From positions 1 through 51,091 of the forward strand of contig CACKRM010000005.1 in NCBI GenBank assembly GCA_902602655.1: DNA of 51,091 nt, in the 5' to 3' direction. Position numbers and translations under genes: made by a program. Position 1 is the stretch's first letter; each line of letters opens with the position of its first letter. This document shows positions 23,498-36,232 of this stretch, piece after piece. The notes beneath the pieces were generated by a model. The model had not been told where the DNA came from. It saw only the letters and a program-made list of their open reading frames with translations, and searched no databases. Source of the stretch: an uncultured Pelagibacteraceae bacterium (GTDB taxonomy: Bacteria; Pseudomonadota; Alphaproteobacteria; Pelagibacterales; Pelagibacteraceae).

Positions 23498-24433
23498 ATG
23501 TCAAATATTTTAATTATTAAACATGGGTCTTTAGGTGACCTTATTCAAGCTAACGGAGCCATTGAAGATATAAAAAATTCTTTTCAAGACTCCAAGGTTC
23601 TTTTGTTAACTTCCTCAAGTTATGCTTATCTGATGTCCCATTGCCCTTATATAGATGGCGTTTTAATAGACAAGAGACTTCCAAGGTGGAATATATTTTA
23701 TTTATTAAATTTAAAAAAAATTTTGTCAAAATATAATTTTTCACATGTTTTTGATTTACAGAACTCTAGAAGAACTAATTTTTACAGAAAATTTATACTT
23801 CCAAATTGCCAGTGGTCTTCAACTGACACAACTCTAGAACCAGGTAAAAGTAAAAAAGATTTTGACAAAGAGCCTGTTCTTGACAGAATGAAAATACAAT
23901 TAGAAAAAAGTGGCATCAGTACAAATAAAATTAAAAAAATTAACTTATCTTGGTCTTTCGTTAATATTGAAAAATTAATTAAACAATACACAAATGGAGA
24001 ATATATTTTGATTTTTCCTTTTTGTTCAAAAAGAAATTTAAATAAAAAATGGCCATATTTTAAAGATTTAGTGAAAGAACTTAAGCAGCTATACAAGAAT
24101 AAATATTCTATTTTAGTGGCTCCTGGAGTTGACGAAGTGGATGAAGCAAAATCTTTAAATGCCAAAGTAGTTTTAAATGAAAATAATAAACCTATTAATT
24201 TAAATTATTTGATAACTTTAATTGAAAAATCTTCTTTTGTAATATCAAATGACACAGGCCCAGCTCACATAGCATCTCATTTAAATAAAAAGGGAATTTC
24301 TCTATTCGGTAGCCACACTTCTCCTGAAAAAATTAGTATTAAAAGTGAAAAATTTAAAACCATTGTAAATGAAAATCTCAAAAAATTAACTGTAAATACT
24401 GTTTTAAGCGAAATTAAGAAAAATCTAAATTAA
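23498..24433 (+). CDS. Family 9 glycosyltransferase (heptosyltransferase-like)
   Basis: GT-B fold transferase of the ADP-heptose:LPS heptosyltransferase family. The N-terminus ILIIKHGSLGDLIQANGAIEDIK (3-25) and the C-terminal donor-site block FVISNDTGPAHIASHLNKKGISLFG (about 247-271) with SPEKI are diagnostic. The length of 311 is near normal. It probably adds a sugar to lipid A core or another surface glycan; donor identity is unknown. It diverges from the DUF6165 gene and its end overlaps the convergent GT4 gene by 9 nt. Confidence 0.85.
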   Translation: MSNILIIKHGSLGDLIQANGAIEDIKNSFQDSKVLLLTSSSYAYLMSHCPYIDGVLIDKRLPRWNIFYLLNLKKILSKYNFSHVFDLQNSRRTNFYRKFILPNCQWSSTDTTLEPGKSKKDFDKEPVLDRMKIQLEKSGISTNKIKKINLSWSFVNIEKLIKQYTNGEYILIFPFCSKRNLNKKWPYFKDLVKELKQLYKNKYSILVAPGVDEVDEAKSLNAKVVLNENNKPINLNYLITLIEKSSFVISNDTGPAHIASHLNKKGISLFGSHTSPEKISIKSEKFKTIVNENLKKLTVNTVLSEIKKNLN

Positions 24434-31646: not shown

Positions 31647-33089
31647 TTAGATCTTTTGATCGTAATCACCAATCTCCCCAGTTTTTTGCAGAAGATCATC
31701 TATAAAAGTAAAAATATTTTTTTTTCTTTCTTCTGAAGTTGGGCTTTCAGTAACAACAACTAAGGAAGGTTTATTAGAAGATGCTCTAATGAGTCCCCAA
31801 GATCCATCAGATAAAGTAAATCTAACTCCATTTACAGTTAAAATTTCCTTTATTTTCATTTCATCAATTTTTACGTTTTTATTCTTTAAATTTTTTATTT
31901 TATTAACAACTTGATCTACAACTTGATATTTTTTTTCATCAGCGCAATAAGGGGCCATAGTAGGTGACTGATAAGTTAAGGGAAGCTCATTTATTATTTG
32001 ATTCATTTTTTTATTTTCATTATTTAAAAGATGGCAGACTTGAATTGCAGAATTAATTCCATCATCGAAACCATAACCTATTGGTGTATTAAAAAAGAAA
32101 TGGCCACTTTTCTCAAAGCCAGCTAGCGCCCTTTCTTGGTTTACTTTTCTTTTAATATGAGAATGACCAGTTTTCCAATAGATTGTTTTACACTTATTTC
32201 TTTGTAAAATCTCATCAATTTTGAACAAACCAGTCGATTTGACATCGACGATAAATTTTACATTAGGGTGTTGTTTTGAAAGATTTCTAGCAATTAACAA
32301 ACCTACTTTATCTGAAAAAATTTCATTTCCATTATTATCAATAACTCCTACACGATCACCGTCACCATCGAAACCAAATCCTATATCTGCATTATTTTCT
32401 TTAACTGTTTTAGAGATAACTTTTAACATTTTAAGATCTTCGGGATTTGGATTGTATTTCGGGAATGTCCAATCTAAATTGCAATCAAGTTCTATAACTT
32501 CACAACCAATATTCTTAAGAATTTCAGGAGCGAACACACCAGCTGTTCCATTACCACATGCTACTACAGCTTTAATTTTTTTTTTTAGTTTATTTTTTTT
32601 AACTAAATCTTGAATATAAACTTCTTTAAAATTGTTAATTACCTTATTAGATCCTTTTCCTGTAATAAATTTTTTTTTAAGCGTAATTTCTTTAAGCTCA
32701 TTCATTTCATTAGCACCGTGCGTCAACCCTTTTTTGATCCCCATTTTTACACCCGTCCAACCGTTCTCGTTATGACTTGCGGTTACCATTGCTATTGCAT
32801 CTGAGTTTAAATTAAATTGAGCAAAATAAACTGTAGGGGAAAGCGATAGACCGATATCCTCAGTATTACATCCGGTAGAAATTAAACCTTTGGTTAAAGC
32901 CTTCTTAATTTTTTCACTATAAGACCTATAATCATGACCCACTATTACTTTTGGATTACTTTTCTTTGTATGATTAATTATTTGAGACCCAAGACCCTTT
33001 CCTAAATCAGTGATTCCCTCTATATCGATGTCTTTGTTAAAGACCCATCTAGCATCGTATTCTCTAAAACCGTTTGGATTGATTTTCAT
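31647..33089 (-). CDS. manB: Phosphomannomutase/phosphoglucomutase
   Basis: Alpha-D-phosphohexomutase that interconverts hexose-1- and hexose-6-phosphates for surface sugars. The phosphoserine loop is MVTASHNENGW (near residue 100), the metal site GFDGDGDRVGVI near 240-251, the sugar-specificity loop GFEKSGHFFF near 315-325 and the phosphate site in the C-terminal domain (RASSNKPSLVVVTES). The length of 480 is normal for bifunctional AlgC-type enzymes. It diverges from nrdA, sharing the 189 nt regulatory gap. It could supply precursors to the glycan genes in this window. Confidence 0.92.
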   Translation of the reverse strand: MKINPNGFREYDARWVFNKDIDIEGITDLGKGLGSQIINHTKKSNPKVIVGHDYRSYSEKIKKALTKGLISTGCNTEDIGLSLSPTVYFAQFNLNSDAIAMVTASHNENGWTGVKMGIKKGLTHGANEMNELKEITLKKKFITGKGSNKVINNFKEVYIQDLVKKNKLKKKIKAVVACGNGTAGVFAPEILKNIGCEVIELDCNLDWTFPKYNPNPEDLKMLKVISKTVKENNADIGFGFDGDGDRVGVIDNNGNEIFSDKVGLLIARNLSKQHPNVKFIVDVKSTGLFKIDEILQRNKCKTIYWKTGHSHIKRKVNQERALAGFEKSGHFFFNTPIGYGFDDGINSAIQVCHLLNNENKKMNQIINELPLTYQSPTMAPYCADEKKYQVVDQVVNKIKNLKNKNVKIDEMKIKEILTVNGVRFTLSDGSWGLIRASSNKPSLVVVTESPTSEERKKNIFTFIDDLLQKTGEIGDYDQKI

Positions 33090-33152
33090 TAGTTATAAGT
33101 ACTAAAGAATATAGTATTTCATTATCAAATGTTTATTAACAAAACTTTCCAC

Positions 33153-33185
33153 TTGCAATTTTTTTTAAATGTTCTTATAATGTTC
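33153..33185 (+). promoter_or_regulatory. nrdAB promoter with overlapping LexA-type (SOS) box
   Basis: TTGCAA (33153-33158) and a perfect TATAAT (33176-33181) are spaced by 17 nt. The direct repeat GTTC-N7-GTTC at 33171-33185 covers the -10 element; this is the alphaproteobacterial LexA operator pattern. Repressor binding there would block RNA polymerase, suggesting DNA-damage induction of ribonucleotide reductase. The start would be near 33188, leaving a leader of about 90 nt before the ATG at 33279. Confidence 0.7.
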
Positions 33186-33228
33186 TATTGATGTTAAGGT
33201 TTATGTAGTATATTAACATAATTGTAAC

Positions 33229-33243
33229 ACAACATATAGTTGT
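33229..33243 (+). promoter_or_regulatory. Candidate NrdR-type operator
   Basis: The sequence has arms ACAAC and GTTGT flanking ATATA, resembling the NrdR box (ACACWATATATWGTGT) in its centre and symmetry but matching only about 10 of 16 positions. It lies in the nrdA leader. A convincing second box at helical spacing was not found, so the call is weak. Confidence 0.35.
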
Positions 33244-33278
33244 TAATAAATAATAAAGTCAATAAACACGTAATAAAT

Positions 33279-35237
33279 ATGAATAAAAACGTCAGTTTGG
33301 CAATAGAAAAAGCTGTGAATAGCATCTCAAAGGCTACAGGCAGTATTAATAGTAATTCAAAAATTCAACAATCAAATAAGCCAGACCTTTTTTCTTTAAG
33401 CGGAGAAACAGAGCTGTTTCAGAATGAAAAGGGTATAACTATAAAAATTGATAGATCTAAAGACTCTAGACTAACAGATTTTGGCAAAGCAACTTTAGCA
33501 GACAGATATGTTGGTCAAAATGAGTCGTTCCAAGATTTATTTGCTAGAGTAGCTAGCACATATGCAGATGACAATCTTCACGCTCAAAGACTTTATAATT
33601 ATATAAGCAATTTATGGTTTATGCCATCAACACCTGTTCTTTCTAATGGAGGAACAGAAAGAGGTTTACCCATCTCATGTTTTTTAAATGAAGCAGGCGA
33701 TAGTCTAGAAGGTATCACAAGTCTTTGGGAAGAAAATGTTTGGTTAGCCGCTAGAGGCGGGGGTATCGGAAGTTATTGGGGTAATCTAAGATCAATTGGC
33801 GAAAAAATTGGTAAAGTTGGGAAAACATCAGGAATAATTCCTTTTATTAAAGTTATGGACTCATTGACCTTAGCAATTAGCCAAGGTTCTTTAAGAAGAG
33901 GCTCAGCCGCTTGCTATTTACAAATTGACCATCCTGAAATCGAAGAGTTTATTGAAATGAGAAGACCTACAGGTGGTGACGTTAATAGGAGATCGTTGAA
34001 CTTACATCATGGAGTTTTAGTTACAGATGAGTTCATGAGAGCTGTTGAAACAGGAGGTCAATGGGCATTAAGAAGTCCATATGATGGAACAGTTCAATCA
34101 ACTATTCCTGCAAGAAATTTATGGATTAGACTTTTGACCGCTAGAGTTGAAACAGGTGAGCCTTATATTATTTACATTGATACGGTTAACAGACAAATAC
34201 CTCAGCATCATAAGTTAGCAGGACTAAAAGTCAAAACATCTAATTTGTGTAGTGAGATAACTTTACCAACGGGATTAGATAATCAAGGCAAAGAAAGAAC
34301 AGCAGTATGCTGTTTGTCTTCTTTAAATTTAGAAACTTATGATGAATGGAAAGACGAGCCTAGGTTTGTCGAAGACGTAATGAGATTTTTAGATAATGTA
34401 ATGAGTGATTTTATAAATAAAGCTCCTGATAGTTTTAATAATGCGAAGTATTCTGCGATGAGAGAAAGAAGCGTTGGTTTAGGAGTAATGGGATTACACT
34501 CATACTTCCAATATAAAAATATTCCATTTGGTTCGGTTATGAGTAAAATATGGAATAAAAAAATATTTAAACATATACAAGAACAAGCAGATAAAGCCTC
34601 AGTTAAACTTGCAGAAGAGAGAGGTGCATGTCCAGATGCCGAAGAATACGATATCAAAGAAAGATTTTCTAACAAGACTGCAATTGCGCCAACGGCTTCA
34701 ATCTCAATAATTTGTGGTGGTGCATCACCTGGTATAGAACCTATAGCAGCAAATAGTTACACGCACAAAACTTTGTCAGGATCATATAACGTTAGAAACA
34801 AATACCTTGCAAAAGTTCTAGACAAGTATGAAAAAAATAATGACGAAATTTGGTCTAGTATAACAACTAATCAAGGTTCTGTTTCACATTTAGATTTTTT
34901 AACTGAGAATGAGAAGGATACTTTCAAAACCGCTTTTGAAATTGATCAAAAATGGATAGTTGAACTTGGAGCAGACAGAACGCCACATATATCACAAGCC
35001 CAATCTGTTAACGTATTTGTTCCAGCTGATATACACAAGAAAGAGCTACACAATATTCATTTTCAGGCATGGAAAAAAGGTCTTAAAAGCCTTTATTATT
35101 GCAGATCTAAATCTATTCAGAGAGCTGAAAACATTAATCAAGGATCTTCAACAGATGTGACAAAAAATGTTTATAAAAACAACAAAGAATCAAATAAAGA
35201 TGAAAATGAATATGAAGAGTGTCTATCATGTCAGTAA
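33279..35237 (+). CDS. nrdA: Ribonucleoside-diphosphate reductase, large (alpha) subunit
   Basis: Makes deoxynucleotides from NDPs with NrdB. I chose the ATG at 33279 (652 residues) because the longer frame from a TTG at 33240 would start inside a likely operator. In this numbering Cys134 (LPISCF) and Cys324 with Asn322 and Glu326 (SNLCSEI) form the active site, AVCCLSSLNLE holds the second redox Cys, and the tail ends CLSCQ (648-652) for re-reduction. The N-terminus lacks an ATP-cone domain. IAPTASISIICGGASPGIEP is a further family motif. nrdB overlaps its 3' end. The promoter carries a LexA-type box. Confidence 0.94.
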   Translation: MNKNVSLAIEKAVNSISKATGSINSNSKIQQSNKPDLFSLSGETELFQNEKGITIKIDRSKDSRLTDFGKATLADRYVGQNESFQDLFARVASTYADDNLHAQRLYNYISNLWFMPSTPVLSNGGTERGLPISCFLNEAGDSLEGITSLWEENVWLAARGGGIGSYWGNLRSIGEKIGKVGKTSGIIPFIKVMDSLTLAISQGSLRRGSAACYLQIDHPEIEEFIEMRRPTGGDVNRRSLNLHHGVLVTDEFMRAVETGGQWALRSPYDGTVQSTIPARNLWIRLLTARVETGEPYIIYIDTVNRQIPQHHKLAGLKVKTSNLCSEITLPTGLDNQGKERTAVCCLSSLNLETYDEWKDEPRFVEDVMRFLDNVMSDFINKAPDSFNNAKYSAMRERSVGLGVMGLHSYFQYKNIPFGSVMSKIWNKKIFKHIQEQADKASVKLAEERGACPDAEEYDIKERFSNKTAIAPTASISIICGGASPGIEPIAANSYTHKTLSGSYNVRNKYLAKVLDKYEKNNDEIWSSITTNQGSVSHLDFLTENEKDTFKTAFEIDQKWIVELGADRTPHISQAQSVNVFVPADIHKKELHNIHFQAWKKGLKSLYYCRSKSIQRAENINQGSSTDVTKNVYKNNKESNKDENEYEECLSCQ

Positions 35238-36232
35238 TTAAAAAAATTAAGCCAGCAAACGAAAATAAAAATATGGGATTATTGGTTGAAAACCCAGTTT
35301 ACAAGCCATTTAGATATCCTTGGTGTTATGATGCTTGGCTTACACAACAAAGAATCCATTGGTTACCCGAAGAAGTTCCTTTAGGAGATGATGTACGTGA
35401 TTGGCAGAAAAACCTCTCTCAAGCTGAAAAAAATTTGCTTACTCAAATATTTAGATTTTTTACTCAGGCCGATGTTGAAGTTAACAATTGTTATTTAAGA
35501 CACTACACAACCGTTTTCAAACCAACTGAGGTATTGATGATGATGACAGCTTTTGCTGCGATGGAGACAGTTCATATAGCTGCATACTCACATCTTCTTG
35601 ATACCATAGGAATGCCAGAGTCAGAATATTCAGCTTTTATGAAATATAAAGAAATGAAAGACAAGTATGATTACATGCAAGGCTTTAATGTTAATTCAAA
35701 GGCAGATATAGCTAAAACGGTTGCAGTTTTTAGTGCTTTCACAGAAGGGCTACAATTGTTTGCAAGTTTTGCAATTCTTTTAAACTTTCCAAGATTTAAT
35801 AAAATGAAAGGAATGGGACAAATAGTTACGTGGTCTGTAAGAGACGAAACACTTCATTGTAATTCTATGATTAGACTTTTTAAAGCTTTTGTAAAAGAAA
35901 ATCCTGAGATTTGGAACGACAAATTAAAAAAAGAAATTTATGAAGCTTGTGAAAAAATAATTTCTCATGAAGATGCTTTCATTGATCTAGCATTTCAAAT
36001 GGGCCCGATACAAGGACTAACTGCTGATCAAGTTAAAAAATATATTAGATGGATTGGAGATAGAAGATTAATGCAACTAGGTCTTAATCCAATTTACAAA
36101 GTTAAAACAAACCCACTAACATGGTTAGACACAATGCTTAACGCAGTTGAACATATGAACTTTTTTGAAGGAAGAGCAACTGAATATTCAAAAGCTTCAA
36201 CAAAGGGTACTTGGGCAGAAGCCTTTTCTTAA
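35228..36232 (+). CDS. nrdB: Ribonucleoside-diphosphate reductase, small (beta) subunit
   Basis: Carries the metal/tyrosyl-radical cofactor of class I ribonucleotide reductase. Using the ATG at 35228 (334 residues; a GTG at 35219 is the alternative), the ligands are Asp82 (TQADVEV), Glu113 and His116 (METVH), Glu173 (TEGLQ), Glu207 and His210 (DETLH). Tyr120 is at the radical position, so this is a tyrosyl-radical type and not the class Ic type that lacks it. There is no N-terminal ATP-cone either. The start lies 10 nt inside nrdA, indicating coupling. Confidence 0.93.
   Translation: MSVIKKIKPANENKNMGLLVENPVYKPFRYPWCYDAWLTQQRIHWLPEEVPLGDDVRDWQKNLSQAEKNLLTQIFRFFTQADVEVNNCYLRHYTTVFKPTEVLMMMTAFAAMETVHIAAYSHLLDTIGMPESEYSAFMKYKEMKDKYDYMQGFNVNSKADIAKTVAVFSAFTEGLQLFASFAILLNFPRFNKMKGMGQIVTWSVRDETLHCNSMIRLFKAFVKENPEIWNDKLKKEIYEACEKIISHEDAFIDLAFQMGPIQGLTADQVKKYIRWIGDRRLMQLGLNPIYKVKTNPLTWLDTMLNAVEHMNFFEGRATEYSKASTKGTWAEAFS

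Follow-up and report, generated by a model that had tools for sequence, protein, structure and literature searches.

A predicted LexA operator on the core promoter of nrdAB in SAR11 bacteria

The nrdAB locus and its promoter

The window, by which we mean the whole stretch of 51,091 nucleotides analysed here, comes from a SAR11-type (Pelagibacteraceae) assembly (G000; 724,480 bases in 26 contigs, around 62% complete), and the named records nearest to it are Pelagibacteraceae. Its forward strand carries nrdA (33279..35237), which Pfam and NCBIfam both identify as encoding the alpha subunit of ribonucleoside-diphosphate reductase (652 residues), and nrdB (35219..36232), encoding the beta subunit (337 residues as called). 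The start of nrdB overlaps the end of nrdA, from which the two genes would appear to form one operon. The reductase is of class I type according to both databases, and Pfam detects no ATP-cone domain in the alpha subunit. On the minus strand lies a divergent phosphomannomutase/phosphoglucomutase-like gene (31647..33089), a plasmid relative of which, at 54% identity, is annotated as phosphomannomutase/phosphoglucomutase. The intergenic region common to this gene and nrdA measures 189 nt, from the start of the former at 33089 to the ATG of the latter at 33279.

Within this gap, a promoter scan places TTGCAA-N17-TATAAT at 33153-33181 on the forward strand, with 10 of 12 matches to the consensus. 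Its -35 hexamer TTGCAA (33153..33158) is conserved at 85-99% per column and its -10 hexamer TATAAT (33176..33181) at 97-100%. The -10 hexamer is contained within a GTTC-N7-GTTC box, GTTCTTATAATGTTC (33171..33185, forward strand), which has no mismatch, lies about 100 nt 5' of nrdA and has its centre, position 33178, on the hexamer. An earlier sequence-only reading of this DNA had described just such an arrangement, a TTGCAA-N17-TATAAT promoter with a perfect repeat centred on its -10, and both the coordinates and the lack of mismatches bear it out. Directly 3' of the box is a conserved TATTGAT (33186..33192, forward strand; columns 91-99% conserved) which, judging from its spacing to the promoter, probably surrounds the transcription start.

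Further downstream, in the 5' untranslated stretch, an NrdR-like palindrome, ACACAACATATAGTTGT (33227..33243, forward strand), shows roughly the promoter's degree of conservation, except in one column that holds A or G. A second candidate promoter in this part of the region (33213-33240, TTAACA-N16-TATAGT) is considered doubtful, since A and G are about equally frequent at the second position of its -10. No structured RNA was matched in the 5' region (32900-33500) at the Rfam gathering threshold.

Conservation of the box

The GTTC-N7-GTTC pattern is, we take it, the known alphaproteobacterial LexA operator or SOS motif. In the window considered alone, a single such box at nrdA is not above chance: two exact matches were found where 0.92 were expected, two or more appeared in 20 of 100 shuffles, and the second match, at 23761, sits within an open frame. 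Counting the motif across whole genomes was also tried as a test of enrichment and proved uninformative. The window's own genome has nine matches against 13 for a reversed-pattern control, only 7 of the 61 genomes have more matches than the control, and in five genomes 52 of 68 matches fall within open frames of at least 100 residues.

It is the conservation of the box across the nrdA upstreams of relatives that shows it to be real and above chance. We compared the nrdA loci of the best 80 of 581 relatives together with those of the window's own genus; 106 loci gave 92 distinct upstreams, after omission of one locus that begins at residue 34 (L162) and one fragment (L099). The absence of the repeat from the nrdA promoters of close relatives had been named in the sequence-only reading as the outcome that would speak against SOS control; instead, the exact box is present in all 92 distinct upstreams of these close Pelagibacteraceae relatives, beginning 96-108 nt ahead of the start codon, and all eight half-site columns are invariant. 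The sequences, being from close relatives, are not independent. Pairwise identity of the upstreams ranges from 0.51 to 1.00 with a median of 0.81, and the columns of the aligned stretch agree with the window's sequence at a mean of 0.76. When every 4+7+4 arrangement of columns in the aligned 185 nt is considered, only 2 of 171 are fully invariant, namely the LexA box and its own one-base shift. Since the sampled upstreams come from close relatives, the breadth of conservation that they establish for the exact box is that of genus to family, not class.

LexA and RecA in SAR11

Both lexA and recA are present in the window's genome, as SOS-type control demands and as the earlier reading had proposed to check. 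The lexA gene (C2:13528-14196) scores over the NCBIfam cut-off and, so far from being missing, has an exact GTTC-N7-GTTC just upstream. The lexA model matches in 58 of 61 genomes, in 44 of them over the cut-off. Among the 30 best-scoring loci of the 58 genomes with a match, every one has the exact box, which begins 33-48 nt ahead of the matched start and is so placed as to suggest that lexA is autoregulated through an operator on its own upstream. The residues needed for self-cleavage are also kept: the Ala-Gly cleavage site is found at 30 of the 30 loci, the strict Ser pattern at 27 and the Lys pattern at 28, and the five exceptions show conservative variants. Weaker second matches to the lexA model look UmuD-like and, at the one locus examined in full (L182), the gene is followed by a umuC-like gene.

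A recA match was obtained in 49 of 61 genomes, and all eight Pelagibacteraceae recA loci examined carry GTACACATTTTGTTC, a form of the box with one mismatch. In a sister family, the exact box precedes recA at 19 of 21 loci evaluated and a one-mismatch box at 20 of 21; one miss is located where its contig ends, and the count excludes a 22nd locus (L063) with too little upstream sequence.

Promoters that carry the box

Five genomes (G000, G021, G034, G006 and G010) contain the 68 exact matches mentioned above, 16 of which lie outside open frames of at least 100 residues. These 16 comprise five at lexA, four at nrdA, four at umuD and three others, the 15-mers of the last three not recurring among the five genomes; the G010 assembly has no nrdA match. 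A comparison between orthologues served as an unbiased test. Simple longest-frame gene calls on the joined stretches of G021 and G034 yielded 885 reciprocal best pairs, of which the 334 whose upstream sequences reach 30 nt or more in both genomes were used. The exact box with a spacer of seven precedes five genes in both genomes: lexA, umuD, nrdA and the divergent neighbours of the latter two, that is, three promoter regions, those of lexA, umuDC and nrdAB. Control spacers (N3-N6 and N8-N12) each gave zero or one gene with a box in both. Such a set is what would be expected of a LexA regulon. When one mismatch is allowed, a spacing of seven is no better than the others (11 genes against 3-13). 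A lone one-mismatch case must therefore be backed by evidence of its own; the recA box is credited because it is widely conserved. No uvr gene was recognised among the 11 genes listed in this comparison.

The spacer comparison bears also on the possibility that the repeat at nrdA is a chance occurrence with no regulator behind it. About one match is indeed expected at the size and composition of the window, but the box is invariant in 92 sequences whose upstreams differ by up to half, and the excess of exact boxes is seen at spacer seven only. Already contradicted by these two observations, a chance origin strikes us as highly improbable.

Other instances of the box deserve mention in their own right. 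In the SAR11 umuDC operon (L182:1520-3014, and L191), the exact box starts 19 nt before the umuD ATG and directly follows a TATAAA that could be a -10 hexamer. The gene mraZ, which usually heads the cell-division cluster, is preceded in 27 of the 30 best-scoring loci by a LexA-like box altered in one half (L404-L433; the gene itself is at G021:C2:103834-104295 and in relatives). It reads GTTC-N7-GTAC in 26 cases and GTTC-N7-GTGC in one, starts about 116-131 nt upstream within variable flanks, and is lacking in the window's own genome (L428). This mraZ box may represent a link from the SOS response to cell division.

Wider distribution of the nrdA box

A strict 22-base pattern of the promoter, allowing at most two mismatches, was sought in 298 genomes of the family and found in 75. 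Most of these, 57 of 67, belong to the window's genus, where two of the ten genomes without the pattern (G007 and G010) have no nrdA match at all. In other genera the frequencies are 10/14 (g172), 3/3 (g173), 1/5 (g175), 2/6 (g5), 1/1 (g176), 0/1 (g177), 0/1 (g178), 0/5 (g179) and 1/195 (g174). At least one of the g5 matches, that in G158, is not at nrdA, while the nrdA box of the same genome is exact within different flanks; the pattern is therefore too strict to show absence of the box. The G158 match away from nrdA (G158:C1:499034-499055), in a single-contig genome from another genus of the family, is promoter-like and includes an exact GTTC-N7-GTTC. As for g174, a large and well-completed genus which probably includes strain HTCC1062, the scarcity of the pattern means either that the flanks differ or that the box is missing there.

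At the level of the class, 77 of 190 genomes have a strong NrdA match, and upstreams were examined for 69 of the 76 beyond the window's own. The exact box with a spacer of seven precedes nrdA in 13 of these 69 other genomes, leaving 56 without it; it occurs in 10 of the 29 most similar and 3 of the remaining 40. Other spacers gave at most one instance in each set (N4-N10 for the similar set, N3-N12 for the remainder). Among the 13, G158 belongs to the same family, G105 has the identical 15-mer and, in three cases (L376, L397 and L454), the box falls within the open frame, before the part that was matched, and its placement with respect to the start codon is unsure. Judged by its predicted operator, control of nrdA by LexA seems to be patchy across the class as a whole and general within the window's SAR11 genus.

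Among plasmid-borne alphaproteobacterial nrdA genes, 1 of 10 named copies, that of Qipengyuania citrea, has the exact box. On this plasmid (L477) nrdA stands beside Ku and ligD genes, and the box starts 66 nt before it. None of the 26 plasmid nrdA matches is a SAR11 record. In the search for an HTCC1062-type nrdA promoter, the gene neighbouring nrdA had no relative in viral contigs, none in phages and, in plasmids, only copies below 60% identity. Phage records that encode a relative of the window's NrdA number 810, including 27 named Pelagibacter phages. In a sister family (f2; L100, L101 and others) the NrdA query meets only a class II-like reductase of around 1200 residues; at two of its class II nrdJ loci (L100 and L101, from 23 genomes), no exact or one-mismatch box lies in the 400 nt that precede the start or the open-frame start.

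NrdR as a second regulator

The palindrome ACACAACATATAGTTGT scores 13 of 16 against an NrdR consensus, a score reached by 6 of 500 mononucleotide shuffles. In each of the 92 upstreams the best match to this consensus scores 12-15 of 16, the second-best being weak and variable in spacing; in the window, a weaker element at around 33202-33217 may be the partner of the palindrome. NrdR itself is matched in 50 of 61 genomes and in 16 of the 16 good ones, with no match in the window's own 62% complete assembly. The conserved NrdR-like palindrome suggests a second layer of control over nrdAB.

It could be asked whether this is in fact the main layer, the GTTC repeat being merely a conserved feature of the promoter and any induction following indirectly from dNTP depletion, as in gammaproteobacteria. 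The palindrome downstream and the frequency of NrdR among these genomes would agree with this, as would published accounts in which damage induction of nrdAB in Escherichia coli, Vibrio cholerae and Acinetobacter baylyi is reported to be independent of LexA or RecA (PMC2500167; PMC5963079; PMC3978071). A bare promoter, however, does not need both GTTC halves, yet they are invariant in 92 of 92 upstreams, and lexA and umuDC have this motif at identical spacing, as does recA in the one-mismatch form. Furthermore, the two regulators can act together. We consider predominant control by NrdR unlikely.

Expression of nrdAB during phage infection

Published RNA-seq of strain HTCC1062 infected by phage HTVC027P reports host nrdA up 3.12-8.87 fold and nrdB 2.53-5.83 fold at 9-15 h (PMC12753301). 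The genes recA, lexA, umuD and umuC, termed a complete SOS response system by the authors, are upregulated in the same infection, and three excinuclease subunits are induced too (PMC12753301). The rise in host nrdAB is explained there as a supply for phage replication, section 14 of the article making no appeal to LexA; another phage, HTVC022P, encodes its own nrdAB (PMC12753301). In a study of iron limitation, lexA, recA and mucA mark one late cluster, and the term 'nrd' is absent from the main text (PMC2864753). The RNA-seq results fit LexA control of nrdAB, with the proviso that this support crosses a genus boundary, HTCC1062 being probably a member of g174. Against such a reading, the rise of nrdAB in phage infection could have some other cause.

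The same data help to decide which gene the box serves. Its situation in a common intergenic region, with 81 nt between it and the start codon of the divergent phosphomannomutase-like gene, might point to that gene in place of nrdAB. Three observations speak otherwise: the centre of the box coincides with the -10 of a promoter directed towards nrdA, boxes precede nrdA elsewhere in the class at different distances, and the infection that raises the SOS genes raises nrdAB itself as well (PMC12753301). That the box works for the divergent gene and not for nrdAB thus appears very unlikely, although LexA bound there could also touch that gene.

A model for LexA control of nrdAB

SOS-type control of nrdAB, the central proposal of the sequence-only reading, is supported by these results: lexA and recA are present, exact boxes at lexA, umuDC and nrdAB are common to two related genomes, and the nrdA box is conserved in 92 of 92 upstreams. 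We propose, with a probability of roughly 0.84, that GTTCTTATAATGTTC is a LexA operator on the nrdAB core promoter, which LexA would occlude and RecA-triggered cleavage would free. The proposal starts from what can be observed, namely the box, its overlap with the promoter, its conservation, the boxes at lexA, recA and umuDC in this or related genomes and the self-cleavage residues of LexA. Binding of LexA to the box, the strength of the repression, the operon structure and the action of NrdR are predictions that follow from it.

In undamaged cells, a LexA dimer lying across the -10 would keep RNA polymerase off and hold nrdAB at a basal level. Single-stranded DNA would activate RecA, whereupon LexA would cleave itself and nrdAB would be derepressed along with lexA, recA and umuDC, making more dNTPs available for repair and for synthesis by Pol V. 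NrdR would probably serve as a separate, dNTP-sensing brake acting through the downstream palindrome. Read in this way, this SAR11 bacterium probably makes more DNA precursors upon DNA damage or phage attack. The open-licence literature that we searched yielded no experiment on LexA binding to nrdA, or on induction of nrdA by damage, in SAR11.

If the model is right, dNTP supply is coupled to error-prone repair, and LexA control offers a simple reason why a phage without nrdAB raises host nrdAB along with the SOS genes. More tentatively, and with considerable doubt, SAR11 might have retained a near-minimal SOS regulon of lexA, recA, umuDC, nrdAB and, in most of the genomes examined, the mraZ cell-division cluster, in which dNTP synthesis is wired directly to LexA; phages without nrdAB may then profit by triggering it, and the presence or absence of nrdAB in a phage would reflect whether it triggers the SOS response of its host.

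Comparison with known systems

SAR11 bacteria rank with the most abundant cell lineages of the ocean and have few regulators, so that each circuit they retain is informative. The operator at nrdAB is of a known type, and no report that LexA controls nrdAB, whether in SAR11 or in other alphaproteobacteria, was recognised in the open-licence literature, consulted mostly as titles and abstracts; we therefore regard nrdAB as a new target of a known type of LexA regulon.

The predicted regulon resembles the alphaproteobacterial SOS regulon in that half-sites and spacing are equal, the boxes overlap or abut core promoters, and the box is exact at lexA and has one mismatch at recA. It differs in that nrdAB is one of the three promoter regions with an exact box common to the two genomes compared, and the set found here is very small, consisting of lexA, umuDC and nrdAB together with recA and its mismatched box. 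The likeness to the NrdR regulon lies in the NrdR-like palindrome near the SAR11 nrdA promoter and the presence of NrdR in most relatives, but a partner box with the usual spacing is not established and NrdR was not found in the 62% complete assembly.

As regards induction, the nearest parallels are Escherichia coli, Vibrio cholerae and Acinetobacter baylyi, whose nrdAB rises after DNA damage. The route, however, is reported to be LexA- or RecA-independent there: damage induction of nrdAB is so reported for E. coli (PMC2500167), the V. cholerae report describes no binding of LexA to the nrdA promoter in EMSA (PMC5963079), and in A. baylyi induction of nrdA is stated to need neither recA nor umuDAb (PMC3978071). 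SAR11, in contrast, has a predicted LexA site on the promoter itself, and direct LexA control of ribonucleotide reductase would set it apart from the gammaproteobacterial models.
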